Below are positions 4,428 to 9,280 of a stretch of 64,000 nucleotides of DNA, piece by piece (within the stretch, counting starts at the first letter, position 1; each line of letters begins with the position of its first letter). Below the pieces are notes generated by a model. It worked only from the letters and a program-made list of their open reading frames with translations. It ran no database searches and had not been told where the DNA came from. The stretch covers positions 255,501 through 319,500 of the forward strand of contig NZ_CP124576.1 in the NCBI RefSeq assembly GCF_000281715.2, read 5' to 3'. Origin of the DNA: Sphingobium sp. AP49. Lineage in GTDB: Bacteria > Pseudomonadota > Alphaproteobacteria > Sphingomonadales > Sphingomonadaceae. The translations under genes and the position numbers were made by a program.

Positions 4428-5453
<1,026 letters not shown>

Positions 5454-5466
5454 GCGCCAAAATATG

Positions 5467-5499
5467 GCGAAATTTCCCAACTTTCAGCAAGCGAAATTT
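5467..5499. promoter_or_regulatory. Putative PspF enhancer: two GCGAAATTT direct repeats
   Basis: GCGAAATTT occurs at 5467-5475 and again at 5491-5499, 24 bp apart. Relative to the sigma-54 promoter at 5555-5572 they lie roughly 85-115 bp upstream of the predicted transcription start. This is where PspF upstream activating sequences lie in enterobacteria. They sit in the pspF-psp intergenic gap immediately before the pspF start codon, so binding could also autoregulate pspF. The position is seen; the function is inferred. Confidence 0.45.
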
Positions 5500-5554: not shown

Positions 5555-5572
5555 TTGGCACGGCCTCTGCAA
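5555..5572 (+). promoter_or_regulatory. Sigma-54 (-24/-12) promoter of the psp operon
   Basis: TTGGCACGGCCTCTGCAA matches the sigma-54 consensus TGGCACG-N4-TTGCA with one mismatch. GG is at 5557-5558 and GC at 5569-5570, the required 12-bp offset. Predicted start is near 5582, giving a ~60-nt leader before the small ORF at 5641. The divergent pspF gene supports the assignment. Confidence 0.85.
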
Positions 5573-5640
5573 TGTTGGGAACGAAGCCGCTGCACAGACA
5601 GGCGGCACCTTTAGAAGGCCAGGTTCAAGGAGTGTTGAAG

Positions 5641-5814
5641 ATGGAAAAGAACAGCAACAGCGTTCGCGAAATCGGTCAGCTGATGTCGGTCGCCATTGCC
5701 GCCGTCCTGTTCGGATCGACCATGATCCTTTCGGCGGTCGGCCCGGCCCGCGCCAGCGAAGCCCCGGTTCTCGCGACCCAGGATACCCCCGCGACCCTGC
5801 GCTATCTGGCGTAA
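5641..5814 (+). CDS. 57-aa single-pass membrane peptide, first gene of the psp transcript
   Basis: Unrecognised small protein directly after the sigma-54 promoter and before pspA. ATG 5641 has AGGAG 8 nt upstream. The sequence starts MEKNSNSVREIGQLMSVAIA, has one hydrophobic helix (about 13-33) and a short tail rich in Ala, Pro and Thr ending TLRYLA. The ARA-SEA junction after the helix could also be a signal peptidase site, so it may be a membrane anchor or a secreted peptide. It is 85 bp from pspA and presumably co-induced with it. No family was recognised; a role as a small envelope-stress peptide is inference from position. Confidence 0.7.
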   Translation: MEKNSNSVREIGQLMSVAIAAVLFGSTMILSAVGPARASEAPVLATQDTPATLRYLA

Positions 5815-5899
5815 GGCCGCACGACCCAGGCCGGGGCGGAAATGCCCCCTCTCGTCCGCCCCGGCCCCCTTGAATGAGAAGACCAGGAGCACCGTTAAA

Positions 5900-6568
5900 A
5901 TGGGTATTTTCTCCCGCACCCGCGACATCATTGCCGCCAATGTCACCGACTTGCTCGACAAGGCGGAAGATCCCGCGAAGATGATCCGCATGATCATCCT
6001 CGAAATGGAGGAGACGCTGGTCGAGGTGCGCGCGTCCGCTGCCCGCACGATCGCCGACCAGAAGGAAATGCGCCGCCACATCGCCAAGCTGGGCGCGCTG
6101 CAGGACAGCTGGACCGAAAAGGCGCAGCTCGCCCTCAGCAAGGACCGCGAGGATCTGGCCAAGGCCGCTCTGGTCGAACGCCAGAAGGCGACCGACATGG
6201 CGGAGCATCTGTCCCACGAGATCGAGACTCTCGATGATGCGCTGAAGGCCGCCGAGGAGGATATCGCCAAGCTGCAGGCCAAGCTGCGCGAAGCCCGCGC
6301 CCGCCAGAACAGCCTGGTGACCCGGATGCAGAGCGCCGAAAACCGCCTGCGCGTCCGCGAAGCCTATGCCGGCGAGAAGGTCAATGACGCCTTTGCCCGC
6401 TTCGACATGCTCGAACGCCGCGTCGACATGGCTGAAGGCCGCGCCGATGCCATGGGCCTGGGCCAGCAGCCCAAGACGCTGGAAGAAGAGATTGCGGAAT
6501 TGAAGTCGGCCGACAAGGTCGATGCCGATCTCGCCGCACTCAAGGCCAGCATGAACAAGGGAGCCTGA
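5900..6568 (+). CDS. pspA: PspA, phage shock protein A (ESCRT-III-like membrane-repair protein)
   Basis: Peripheral inner-membrane protein that oligomerises on stressed membranes and inhibits PspF when not bound there. ATG 5900 (MGIFSRTRDIIAANVTDLLD) was chosen because this is the canonical PspA/IM30 N-terminus and AGGAG lies upstream. The 222-aa protein is almost wholly helical coiled coil with the family pattern EDPAKMIRMIILEMEETLVE near residues 25-45. Length matches E. coli PspA (222). It is followed after 4 bp by pspB. Confidence 0.97.
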   Translation: MGIFSRTRDIIAANVTDLLDKAEDPAKMIRMIILEMEETLVEVRASAARTIADQKEMRRHIAKLGALQDSWTEKAQLALSKDREDLAKAALVERQKATDMAEHLSHEIETLDDALKAAEEDIAKLQAKLREARARQNSLVTRMQSAENRLRVREAYAGEKVNDAFARFDMLERRVDMAEGRADAMGLGQQPKTLEEEIAELKSADKVDADLAALKASMNKGA

Positions 6569-6572
6569 TCCG

Positions 6573-6842
6573 ATGGAAGACGTACTGGTCCCCATCGCGG
6601 TGGTCGGCATGTTGTTCATCGGCATGCCCTGGCTGATCTTCCACTATGTCACCAAGTGGAAGCAGGCCCCCAAGATCACCGACGAGGACGAGCGGCTGCT
6701 GGATGAACTCCACCTGCTCGCCCGCCGTCTCGAAGACAGGCTGCAGACGGTCGAACGGATCGTCGCCGCCGACAACCCCGACTTCCGCCCGCAACGCCCG
6801 GTACAGGGCGACGACGATTACAGCTTCGACCGGAGGAACTGA
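6573..6842 (+). CDS. pspB: PspB, envelope stress response membrane protein
   Basis: Small inner-membrane protein that works with PspC to relieve PspA inhibition of PspF. The 89-aa sequence has one N-terminal TM helix (about 5-27, including PWLIFHYVTKWK). A cytoplasmic coiled coil follows with the PspB signature LARRLEDRLQTVERIVAADN. It starts 4 bp after pspA and stops 1 bp before the pspC start codon, so translation is coupled. The C-terminal tail is acidic and slightly longer than the E. coli protein. The RLxTVExI segment is also recognisable in the five small genes downstream. Confidence 0.93.
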   Translation: MEDVLVPIAVVGMLFIGMPWLIFHYVTKWKQAPKITDEDERLLDELHLLARRLEDRLQTVERIVAADNPDFRPQRPVQGDDDYSFDRRN

Positions 6843-6843
6843 C

Positions 6844-7224
6844 ATGAGCGCCCGCCGCACCAAATTCTATCTCGACAAACAGAATGGCAAGTGGATGGGC
6901 GTGTGCTCCGGCATCGCCGACTATACCGGGATCGATGTGGTCTGGGTTCGGGTCGGCGCGGTGCTGGTGACCCTGATGGGCGCTTTTCCCTGGTCGCTGA
7001 TCGCCTATTTCGCCGCTGCCTATTTCGCCGAGAAGAAGCCGGTTGGCCTCTATGCCGACCGCGACGACGAGAAATTCTGGCAGGGCGTGCGCACCAACCC
7101 GGCGCGCTCCACCCGCGACGTCCGCTCCAAGTTCCGCGACATCGACCGCCGCCTCGCCGACATCGAGGTCTATTATACCAGCCGCAACACGCGCTTGGCC
7201 GACGAGATCGACAGCCTGCGCTGA
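6844..7224 (+). CDS. pspC: PspC domain protein
   Basis: Polytopic/bitopic sensor of the Psp response. ATG 6844 (MSARRTKFYLDKQNGKW) follows pspB directly. The 126-aa protein has the PspC domain (about 5-70): MGVCSGIADYTGIDVVWVR, then a hydrophobic segment with LVTLMGAFPWSLIAYFAAAY. A charged tail ends DIDRRLADIEVYYTSRNTRLADEIDSLR (broken here: DIDRRLADIE, VYYTSRNTRL, ADEIDSLR). That tail pattern, R-x3-LExxxT(S/D)-x(4-6)-L-x2-EI-x2-LR, recurs in the next four small genes. It is co-transcribed with pspAB. Confidence 0.93.
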   Translation: MSARRTKFYLDKQNGKWMGVCSGIADYTGIDVVWVRVGAVLVTLMGAFPWSLIAYFAAAYFAEKKPVGLYADRDDEKFWQGVRTNPARSTRDVRSKFRDIDRRLADIEVYYTSRNTRLADEIDSLR

Positions 7225-7253
7225 CAAGAGGCGGGAATCCGGGGGAAGAGAAG

Positions 7254-7490
7254 ATGGATCCGACACCATATTTCATCATGGGCGCGTTGAGCGGGATCAC
7301 CGCGACGCTCCTGATCCAGGCTTATGCCCGGCGCAAGGTTGCCAAGGCGACGGCCCAGCTGACGGCCAATGTCGTCGACCAGGACCAGCAGATCGTCACC
7401 CATGAACTGCGCGAACGGATCAAGGTGCTGGAACAGATCGTCACCGATCGGCCGGTCCGCCTGGCGGATCAGATCGAACGGCTCCGCTGA
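7254..7490 (+). CDS. Small one-TM PspB/PspC-tail-like protein, paralogue 1
   Basis: A 78-aa protein not in canonical psp operons. ATG 7254 has GGGGGAAGAG upstream. An N-terminal TM helix (about 6-26) is followed by a short basic stretch (AYARRKVAKAT) and a coiled coil with ERIKVLEQIVTDRPVRLADQ, then IERLR at the C-terminus. The end closely resembles the PspC tail (RLADEIDSLR) and the PspB helix (VERIV). It lies 29 bp after pspC in the same direction. Function unknown; a Psp sensor or adaptor role is inferred from motif sharing and position. Confidence 0.8.
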   Translation: MDPTPYFIMGALSGITATLLIQAYARRKVAKATAQLTANVVDQDQQIVTHELRERIKVLEQIVTDRPVRLADQIERLR

Positions 7491-7527
7491 ACCCGGCCCG
7501 GCCGAAGACAATAGGGAGTTCAAGGCC

Positions 7528-7818
7528 ATGAATTTCGCAGGACCGACCTTCGTTCTGGCCATCATCGCGATGTCGACGTTGGGCTGGATGTTCACCACCT
7601 GGGTCCGTGCCCGCCACGGCTATCCGGTTGAAAATGAATGGACGGGTACCGTTCATCGAACAGATCCCGACGCCGGTCGAAAAATCGACCTTCTTTCAAG
7701 TGAAAACGAAAAGCTCACTGGCCGCATCAGCCGCCTCGAAGAACGCATCGCAGTCCTCGAACGGATCGCCACCGATCCCGCCGCCCGGACCGCGCGCGAC
7801 ATCGATGCGCTGCGCTGA
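7528..7818 (+). CDS. Small one-TM PspB/PspC-tail-like protein, paralogue 2
   Basis: A 96-aa protein with ATG at 7528 and GGGAG upstream. It has a TM helix (about 5-24) ending WMFTTWVRARHGYPVENEW. A predicted coiled coil follows (SENEKLTGRISRLEERIAVL) continuing ERIATDPAARTARDIDALR. It is most similar to the next gene: both share GWxFTTWxRxRxGYPxENxW after the TM helix. The C-terminal motif RIAVLERIATD matches the other array members. Likely a membrane-anchored cytoplasmic coiled-coil adaptor produced together with PspABC; exact role unknown. Confidence 0.8.
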   Translation: MNFAGPTFVLAIIAMSTLGWMFTTWVRARHGYPVENEWTGTVHRTDPDAGRKIDLLSSENEKLTGRISRLEERIAVLERIATDPAARTARDIDALR

Positions 7819-7846
7819 CTCTGACCGGGCAAGGGGAGTATAGGAC

Positions 7847-8191
7847 ATGAACAAGACCGACATGGTAGATGCCTTCGTCATGCCCAACCTGCCGTGGATC
7901 ATCGGCGGCGGGCTTCTGATCGGGGCGATGGCGATCGGCGGGTGGATCTTCACCACCTGGCTCCGCGTCCGCAACGGCTACCCGCTGGAAAATAGCTGGG
8001 GCAAGGCGGTATATCCGCAGAAGAATGAGGAACTGGTCGAGCGCATCAAGCTGATCAGCCAGGAAAATGCCCAGTTGCGTGCGGAAATCGGCTCGATGAA
8101 GGACCGGCTTGCCGTGGTCGAGCGGATCGTCACCGACGAAAGCCATCAGCTCAATCGCGAAATCGAGCGGCTGCGCGGCCCGGCGAACTGA
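7847..8191 (+). CDS. Small one-TM PspB/PspC-tail-like protein, paralogue 3
   Basis: The largest member of the array (114 aa). ATG 7847 has AGGGGAG upstream. After ~15 residues comes a glycine-rich TM helix (about 16-36, WIIGGGLLIGAMAIGGWIF), then TTWLRVRNGYPLENSW, the block shared with paralogue 2. The C-terminal half is a long coiled coil with KDRLAVVERIVTDESHQLNR and EIERLR near the end. Tandem duplication with the preceding gene is the simplest explanation for the shared block. No enzymatic motif is visible. Confidence 0.8.
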   Translation: MNKTDMVDAFVMPNLPWIIGGGLLIGAMAIGGWIFTTWLRVRNGYPLENSWGKAVYPQKNEELVERIKLISQENAQLRAEIGSMKDRLAVVERIVTDESHQLNREIERLRGPAN

Positions 8192-8220
8192 TCGCCCCGC
8201 GCGCCCAAGGGAGGACAGAC

Positions 8221-8472
8221 ATGAATCCGTTTGAAATGGTCGTCGCCATCGTCGCGATCACCGCCATCGCCAGCGTCGTCCGCGCCAAATATGGCGTCGT
8301 GCGCCGCCACAAGGGTGAGGATTTCATCCAGCGCGGCCCCGATCCAGAGGCCGAACGCCTCCGCGCCGAAGTGAAGGCGCTCAAGGACCGGGTCGCCGTG
8401 CTGGAACGGCTCGCCACCGACAGTTCGACCGCGCTGGAGCGCGAATTCGAGAAGCTCAAGGACCGCGACTGA
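8221..8472 (+). CDS. Small one-TM PspB/PspC-tail-like protein, paralogue 4
   Basis: An 83-aa protein; ATG 8221 is preceded by GGGAGG. A short N-terminal hydrophobic helix (about 5-20, EMVVAIVAITAIASVV) is followed by a basic patch (RAKYGVVRRHKGED). The coiled coil contains KALKDRVAVLERLATDSSTA followed by LEREFEKLK. The VAVLERLATD segment is the array signature. The spacing of 29 bp from the preceding gene is like that of the other members. The basic patch may contact phospholipid head groups, but that is conjecture. Confidence 0.78.
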   Translation: MNPFEMVVAIVAITAIASVVRAKYGVVRRHKGEDFIQRGPDPEAERLRAEVKALKDRVAVLERLATDSSTALEREFEKLKDRD

Positions 8473-8500
8473 TCGCGGCAAAGGACACAGGGAGGACATC

Positions 8501-8734
8501 ATGCAGGATCCCCTCTTCTATCTGACCATGGCCACCGCCGGCCTCGCCGGTCTCACCATCGTCGCCTTCGCGTCGCTGCGCGGCTGGAATGGCTGGCTCG
8601 ACCTCAAACGTGCCGAACTGGGGCGCCGGGTCGAGGAAGCCGCACCGCCCTCGGCCGCCGCCCGGATCGAGGTTGCCGACCTCAAGGAACGCATCCGCAA
8701 GCTCGAAGCCATCGCCGCCGGCGTCGATCTGTAA
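8501..8734 (+). CDS. Small one-TM coiled-coil protein, paralogue 5 and last gene of the psp array
   Basis: A 77-aa protein, the most diverged member. ATG 8501 is preceded by GGGAGG. A TM helix (about 6-26) ends SLRGWNGWLDLKR, followed by a short coiled coil with VADLKERIRKLEAIAAGVDL. The LKERIRKLEAIA piece is a weak version of the shared RIxVLExIxTD signature, and the LR tail is missing. It is followed by a hairpin (8736-8767), so the psp transcript probably ends here. Confidence 0.75.
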   Translation: MQDPLFYLTMATAGLAGLTIVAFASLRGWNGWLDLKRAELGRRVEEAAPPSAAARIEVADLKERIRKLEAIAAGVDL

Positions 8735-8845: not shown

Positions 8846-9280
8846 ATGGGCGGCATGACCGATCAGCCCGCCCCGATGCCCGTTCTGGCCGACCTCCAGG
8901 AAGAATATGAATTTCTCGACGCCGATGATCGCTATCGCCTGTTGATCGACCTCGGCCGGGGGCTGGAGGATATGCCCGACGCGCTCAAGACCGATGCGAC
9001 GCTGGTGCGGGGCTGTTCGGCGGCGGTCTGGGTCTATCCGACGGTGCTCGCCGATGGCCGGCTCCATTTCCTTGCAGACAGCAATGCCGCCATCACCAAG
9101 GGGATCATCGCGCTGGTGCTGCTCACCGTGCAGGACTGCGCGCCCGCAGAGATCGGCGCGACCGATATCGAGGGCGCCCTCGCGCCCTTCGACCTCAAGA
9201 ACCAGCTCAGTTCCAACCGCACCCAGGGCATTCCCAACATGATCGCCCTGATCCGCGAGACCGCTACGCGCTACGCCTGA
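8846..9280 (+). CDS. sufE: SufE family sulfur-acceptor protein
   Basis: Accepts persulfide sulfur from the cysteine desulfurase SufS and passes it to the SufBCD scaffold. The protein is 144 aa from ATG 8846 (141 from ATG 8855, equally plausible). The catalytic Cys is in VRGCSAAVW (Cys57 from the first ATG). The motif NQLSSNRTQGIPNMIALIRE near the C-terminus is characteristic. It lies 5 kb away from the suf operon at 14102-20505 in this window, so it is transcribed separately, between the psp locus and a lipoprotein gene. Confidence 0.9.
   Translation: MGGMTDQPAPMPVLADLQEEYEFLDADDRYRLLIDLGRGLEDMPDALKTDATLVRGCSAAVWVYPTVLADGRLHFLADSNAAITKGIIALVLLTVQDCAPAEIGATDIEGALAPFDLKNQLSSNRTQGIPNMIALIRETATRYA

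Follow-up and report, generated by a model that had tools for sequence, protein, structure and literature searches.

How PspB and PspC capture PspA at the stressed membrane in the phage shock protein (Psp) system is under debate, and so is the topology of PspC (PMC3068692). The C-terminus of PspC is reported to bind PspA (PMC5596341), and the leucine zipper of E. coli PspC is described as required for the PspA interaction (PMC3068692). An E. coli PspC fragment comprising residues 40-119, which contains the membrane span and the tail, is able to interact with PspA and to induce psp even when PspB is absent, and the authors discuss a change of topology in this context (PMC3068692). In Yersinia, exchange of V125 in PspC abolishes the PspC-PspA interaction, and the E. 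coli V105D exchange is said, from then-unpublished work, to abolish PspC-dependent signalling (PMC6003685). Here, we describe five further small genes, X1 to X5, that follow pspC in the psp operon of Sphingobium sp. AP49 (Sphingomonadaceae), four of which encode a complete PspC-type tail behind a single membrane span. They lie in a window of 64,000 nucleotides, the whole stretch of DNA analysed (contig NZ_CP124576.1, positions 255,501 to 319,500, forward strand).

Additional genes in psp operons have been noted before. In other psp operons there are genes for small proteins whose role is unclear, for instance PspD (PMC9239133), and Ravi et al. 2024 mention, in one sentence and with AOL22920.1 as the example, 'PspB duplicates' within pspFABC operons, as well as PspC fused to a divergent PspB (PMC11237479). 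Different from the present locus, the passages of Ravi et al. considered here contain no array of up to eight genes, no tail motif and no family-wide survey, and the string 'sphingo' occurs nowhere in the main text. The passages of PMC9239133 considered here mention no such array, and a literature search over titles, the starts of abstracts and opened passages, with subscription literature mostly outside its coverage, returned no description of one. PspB duplicates in psp operons are already known, and the tail-bearing array of sphingomonads is a new variant.

The PspC-type tail and its relation to PspB and PspC

With all genes re-read from the sequence, the locus has the order pspF (minus strand), a sigma-54-type site, S, pspA, pspB, pspC, X1, X2, X3, X4, X5 and sufE. 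Pfam and NCBIfam recognise PspA, PspB and PspC in the window, and none of X1 to X5 reaches a curated cut-off in either database. Occurrence is given below for the other genomes of the genus, of which 36 were searched and 35 have a psp locus.

5900..6568, plus strand: pspA (TIGR02977, 282 bits, above cut-off)
6573..6842, plus strand: pspB (PF06667, E 5.6e-26)
6844..7224, plus strand: pspC, with a C-terminal 38-residue tail (TIGR02978, 127.8 bits, above cut-off)
7254..7490, plus strand: X1, 78 residues, one membrane span and PspC-type tail; found at 4 of the 35 other loci of the genus (truncated at 2); tail E 2e-15, X1's own row being part of the profile
7528..7818, plus strand: X2, 96 residues, one span and PspC-type tail; 25 of 35 loci; tail ratio of nonsynonymous to synonymous substitution rates (dN/dS) 0.13
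7847..8191, plus strand: X3, 114 residues, one span and PspC-type tail; 23 of 35 loci; TIGR02978 E 8e-4, below cut-off
8221..8472, plus strand: X4, 83 residues, one span and PspC-type tail; 32 of 35 loci, one as a short piece; TIGR02978 E 0.002 and TIGR02976 E 0.038, both below cut-off
8501..8734, plus strand: X5, 77 residues, one span and the first half of the tail block; 34 of 35 loci; tail dN/dS 0.06

The original prediction of five extra genes behind pspC, encoding 77-114 residues each and set 28-37 bp apart behind good ribosome sites, is accurate in order, sizes and gaps (29, 37, 28, 29 and 28 bp from pspC-X1 to X4-X5). Ribosome sites of the GGGAG/GGAGG type precede X2 to X5, and that of X1 is weaker and purine-rich. 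X2 and X3 share the pattern GW-x-FTTW-x-R-x-R-x-GYP-x-EN-x-W and are clear duplicates, as had been proposed. Spurious open reading frames are ruled out for the X genes by their orthologues and low dN/dS.

As judged from profile comparison, the tail of X1 to X4 is homologous to the PspC tail, and its first half is also homologous to PspB. A block of 38 columns aligns without gaps between 16 PspC tails (alignment A1) and 17 X tails (alignment A2), and R15, E20, T24 and L37 are invariant across every row of both. Comparison of the two profiles with hhalign yields a probability of 94.6, an E of 7e-8 and a score of 32.6, in agreement with the earlier claim that four of the five proteins end in a PspC-tail-like block. 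None of 300 heptad-preserving column shuffles scores as high (best 23.3), the best of 300 free shuffles reaches 17.5, and a reversed profile scores 15.0. Rotations by 7, 14, 21, 28 and 31 score 31.1, 28.8, 20.5, 16.3 and 19.5; high values for some of them are expected because long blocks stay together and the local match is kept. Chance or generic coiled-coil likeness is ruled out for X1 to X4, since the heptad-preserving shuffles stay below the real score. Only the first half of the block is present in X5.

The tail block spans the residue required for PspC-PspA binding in Yersinia. V105 of E. coli K-12 PspC corresponds to tail column 23, directly before T-S, and this column holds V, A or I in 17 of 17 X rows. 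Because the E. coli fragment 40-119 consists of span plus tail, and because the column-23 (V105) residue is kept, the X proteins look like natural span-plus-tail pieces of PspC.

The relation extends over the full-length proteins, including X6 (KAAQY type), a further subfamily present at 3 of the 35 genus loci. Profile-profile comparison, with E given per single pair, links PspC to X3 (1.6e-7), X4 (5e-7) and X6 (2e-5), and PspB to X3 (9e-6), X6 (7e-6) and X4 (6e-5); the PspB-PspC pair itself stands at 0.004, and X5 is weakly linked to X4 (7e-5). When 80 diverse X proteins are compared with 18,950 NCBIfam models at E<=0.05, PspC (TIGR02978, 47/80) and PspB (TIGR02976, 30/80) are the top two, and PspB is the commonest of 24,736 Pfam models at the same threshold (18/80). 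In the window, PspB-model scores (PF06667, TIGR02976) reach 14.3 bits for X4, against a cut-off of 51.7, and 12.7 for X2, with X1, X3 and X5 unlisted.

Like PspB, the X proteins combine a short N-terminus, one span and a cytoplasmic coil with an LExR(I/L)xxxERI block, and are encoded in the psp operon. Unlike PspB, X1 to X5 fall far under the family cut-offs, and X1 to X4 extend into the second half of the tail, which is present in PspC and absent from PspB. With the PspC tail (TIGR02978) they share the ungapped block and its four invariant residues; unlike PspC, they carry D rather than S at column 25 and lack the PspC domain PF04024, which has no match in X1 to X5 and is not among the 25 families shown for the 80 X proteins. 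PspD and PspG are likewise additional small membrane proteins of the Psp regulon, but no PspD or PspG family in Pfam or NCBIfam matches X1 to X5 or the 80 X proteins, and E. coli PspD, at E 0.49 against the X-tail profile in a search of 3 sequences, shows no similarity to the tail. A search of the PDB with the 80-row X alignment gave a potassium channel as best match (E 8e-4), followed by coiled coils, and was judged to reflect chance.

Distribution in Sphingomonadaceae and natural losses

The array is real, old within Sphingomonadaceae and unannotated. The X-tail profile matches 279 of 298 family genomes and 90 of 96 genera at E<=0.01, with up to 9 matches per genome. All 20 loci examined from other genera, chosen from X-tail matches and to that extent preselected, show pspA-B-C, 2-8 tail-bearing X genes, X5 (19/20) and then sufE. 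A second preselected set, 80 named loci found with X3 (Sphingobium, Sphingomonas, Sphingopyxis, Stakelama, Chakrabartia and others), has A-B-C followed by 2-6 X genes in 79 and X5 in 79, the exceptions, L238 and L217, being short contigs. The laboratory Sphingobium SYK-6 likewise has the array (L206). Conservation of the array in related genomes, which the original prediction had named as one of its tests, is thus observed. In genus g46, two loci (L252, L253) carry a single X and lack X5. At E<=0.001, X3 has 6108 relatives; none of the 120 listed has a Pfam domain, and every name shown for them is hypothetical or uncharacterized. X5 has at least 8000 relatives; of the 120 listed, two bear the name YecT (DUF1311), and the other names shown are again hypothetical or uncharacterized. 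The array would illustrate how a core envelope-stress operon can be expanded across a family while the extra genes stay labelled hypothetical.

Within the family, X tails and PspB tend to be present or absent together. PspB is found in 277 of the 298 genomes, and both features occur in 274, the tail only in 5, PspB only in 3 and neither in 16 (Fisher p 1.5e-19, a test that ignores kinship; G346 enters the table as one inferred PspB-negative genome). The tail-positive G152 depends on a single match (E 0.0066) in a 534-residue frame and has no PspA match; counting it as negative gives 274/4/3/17 and p 3e-21. Two of the PspB-only genomes (G135, G176) have X5 only, and in the third (G156) 300 bases separate PspB from a contig end. 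Genomes that lack both tail and PspB although they are close to complete come from at least five genera (g39, g57, g83, g92, g109), and some of the other genomes lacking both are incomplete.

Two loci have lost part of the core system. G346 (L274) has the order A-C-X-X-X, with PspB absent. G100 (L273) encodes PspA, two X proteins with good tails and an 88-residue PspC that is cut short ahead of its tail, and it lacks PspB. A protein search with this PspC returned five sequences of 87-88 residues, its own and four at 74-82% identity; given these four further tail-less sequences, a sequencing error does not explain the short form. At the G100 locus, recognisable tails are found on the X proteins only, and this is one lineage.

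Topology, selection and a proposed anchoring role

All 80 diverse X proteins have one hydrophobic segment, and 79 of them carry more lysine and arginine after it than before it (hydrophobicity and charge). Given this positive-inside pattern, the coil is predicted to be cytoplasmic and the N-terminus outside. A structure model of X3 (mean predicted local distance difference test, pLDDT, 72.5; predicted template modelling score, pTM, 0.31) contains helices at residues 3-42 and 60-110 joined by a poor linker. The second helix extends along the tail, and residues 71-100 have block means of 82-89. The best explanation of these features is that X1 to X4, and X5 in a shorter form, would each cross the inner membrane once and present a PspC-type tail on the cytoplasmic side.

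Two elements upstream bear on when these proteins are made.

4428..5480, minus strand: pspF, the sigma-54 activator, read as an open reading frame (codon score 118); orthologues are divergent from pspA in relatives
5556..5571, plus strand: sigma-54-type promoter, TGGCACG-N4-CTGCA, 21/22 in a simple score

Of 96 psp loci, 86 have a sigma-54-type site scoring at least 20 in the 450 nucleotides before pspA, compared with a background of 800 random 160-nucleotide stretches of the window (95% at 18, highest 20) whose lengths are unlike those of the loci. Inside the X array of the window, promoter scans found no sigma-54 site above 18/22 and no sigma-70 match. No terminator after X5 was detected by a scan that gave fewer sites than shuffled sequence. 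Because a sigma-54-type site stands upstream of pspA and no better promoter lies inside the array, the X genes are probably co-induced, and their products probably appear alongside PspA once the operon is induced; anchoring or feedback therefore fits them better than first-line sensing.

This timing bears on the earlier proposal that a single stress readout is shared out among several membrane sensors, with each X as an alternative sensor or adaptor, different membrane stresses read by different X proteins, and all of them acting on PspA and PspF. Several subfamilies recur across the 20 loci of other genera when scored by simple patterns (X3-type 19, X5 19, X6-type 16, X2-type 15), so each has kept a distinct identity, a point in favour of separate sensors. 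Against them, a median of 4 residues precedes the span in the 80 X proteins, leaving no room for a periplasmic sensor; Pfam and NCBIfam searches with X1 to X5 and the 80 X proteins found no sensor domain; and with no good promoter of its own in the array, X would probably be made after induction. The split readout is not supported by these features, and we regard such sensors as unlikely. Additional anchors, scaffolds or feedback elements would account for the X proteins equally well or better.

Selection is stronger on the tail than on the rest of X. The tails of X2 to X5 have dN/dS values of 0.06-0.13 vs 0.19-0.32 for the remaining parts, and PspB and PspC stand at 0.25-0.32, outgroups being included, so that their comparison with X is not strict. 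This pattern counts against X proteins as effectors, small proteins made in bulk that stabilise the membrane or conserve the proton-motive force and whose tails mainly connect them with one another and with PspC. Such a role would suit the free variation in copy number, with 2-8 tail genes across the 20 loci, and has a parallel in the further small proteins of unclear role, PspD among them, reported from other psp operons (PMC9239133). The selection pattern indicates the tail, however, and not the membrane part, and E. coli PspD bears no resemblance to the X tail; an effector role is improbable on this evidence.

The reading we favour, with reasonable though not high confidence and from sequence comparison, is that the X proteins are membrane-anchored PspC-type tails that bind PspA and/or the coils of PspB and PspC. 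Of the earlier suggestion that they are PspA- or PspC-binding adaptors, the kinship with PspB and PspC and the possession of a tail reported to bind PspA in PspC have been borne out, and the binding itself is predicted. Induction through PspF and sigma-54 would make the operon produce many tails besides PspC's own. The helix around E-x-x-(V/A)-T-D would be their contact site for PspA, and probably also for the coils of PspB and PspC; the tails would keep PspA at the membrane and adjust how much of it remains available for inhibiting PspF. The juxtamembrane pieces differ (GYPxExxW, KAAQY and NPFEMV types), and through them each paralogue would probably have a partner or position of its own within a mixed coiled-coil assembly; they are probably not periplasmic sensors of individual paralogues. 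The sphingomonad stress system may thus use several grips on PspA where other bacteria use one. A broader version is more speculative: the PspC tail would have been made stand-alone and multiplied in sphingomonads. Up to eight different anchors would together build a mixed coiled-coil platform to which PspA, a bacterial ESCRT-III protein, would be recruited and on which it would be organised at the inner membrane; at least one lineage would have passed PspA binding from PspC and PspB to this platform. The family supplies natural single-span versions of the tail, thousands of domain-less sequences, and genomes that have naturally lost the PspC tail or PspB; the PspA binding step therefore becomes testable with small proteins.

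Several observations weigh against the favoured reading. Column 25 separates the two groups completely, with S in every PspC row and D in every X row. Searched against its own genome, the PspC-tail profile has PspC as its sole match, and the X-tail profile returns X1 to X4, which are members of it, then X5 (E 0.17), PspC (0.42), two unrelated places (0.78 and 1.7) and PspB (4.9), reaching PspC and PspB only at these values. X5 has no significant profile link to PspB (0.016) or PspC (0.11), and generic coiled-coil families come near PspB in the Pfam comparison of the 80 X proteins (bZIP_1, for example, 16/80). Tail-bearing X is also dispensable, since 3 of the 35 Sphingobium loci (L062, L065, L067), and likewise L255 and L256, have psp and X5 only. 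Outside the family, X is mostly one gene per genome (families f2, f5, f6, f7 and f8), and 12 of 15 fetched regions, judged on the stretch available and in some cases limited by contig ends, show no pspA, pspC or pspF match beside X.

X genes outside the family and neighbouring genes

Relatives of X are common across the order, with 121 of 147 genomes matching the profile at E<=0.001. At 19 psp loci from other families of the order, a relative of a window X stands beside psp in 2 only (L039, L041), and the remaining three of the 15 fetched regions are at psp (L283, L285, L288). In another family of the order, a stand-alone X4-like gene lies directly behind rpoD in all three regions whose upstream neighbour was tested (L281, L282, L286), and L280 holds a tandem X pair. 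A search of the class matched 22 of 385 genomes, of which five Sphingomonadaceae and G536 are solid; the other 16 matches (E 9e-4 to 0.01) were judged noise. G536 carries two tandem X-like genes after coaBC-dut (L254, 5227-5709, minus strand), about 80 kb from its own pspA.

These placements lend some weight to the idea that X works with non-Psp partners, its position in the psp operon reflecting shared stress induction only and the tail likeness an old common coil. Single genes in other families of the order, the regions without psp, the three with rpoD directly before X, and the G536 pair would all be expected on this account. It conflicts with the joint presence and absence of X tails and PspB within the family and with the G100 X proteins, which retain the tail lost from PspC, and we think it quite improbable. 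Because X outside the family is mostly a single gene, often away from psp, an X4-like ancestor may predate the array and may have been recruited to psp and expanded in Sphingomonadaceae.

Two further genes frame the operon of the window.

5641..5814, plus strand: S, 57 residues, the operon's first gene, with a hydrophobic N-terminus; orthologues lie before pspA in most Sphingobium loci
8846-9280: sufE, downstream of X5

S was left out of the earlier gene list, whose details are otherwise right, save that X5 bears a half block. Placed between the sigma-54-type site and pspA, S has a possible signal-peptide site, PARA-SEAP, and by a loose rule a small open reading frame with a ribosome site occupies this position in 67 of 99 loci. 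Papers on Zymomonas report induction of pspA-C under ethanol or xylose and call the gene whose number precedes that of pspA, at the position of S, hypothetical or 'pspD' (PMC3495753, PMC8645129). Downstream of the array comes sufE, at 20 of 20 loci from other genera and at most of the 80 named loci.

Additional PspC-domain genes also occur. Tail-less ones stand beside a full pspC in the same operon at L132 (5527-5721) and L041 (5535-5690). The genome of the window has a second PspC-domain gene elsewhere, a 78-residue open frame (L002, G000:C1:730377-730538), and similar second matches are present in many genomes of the genus.

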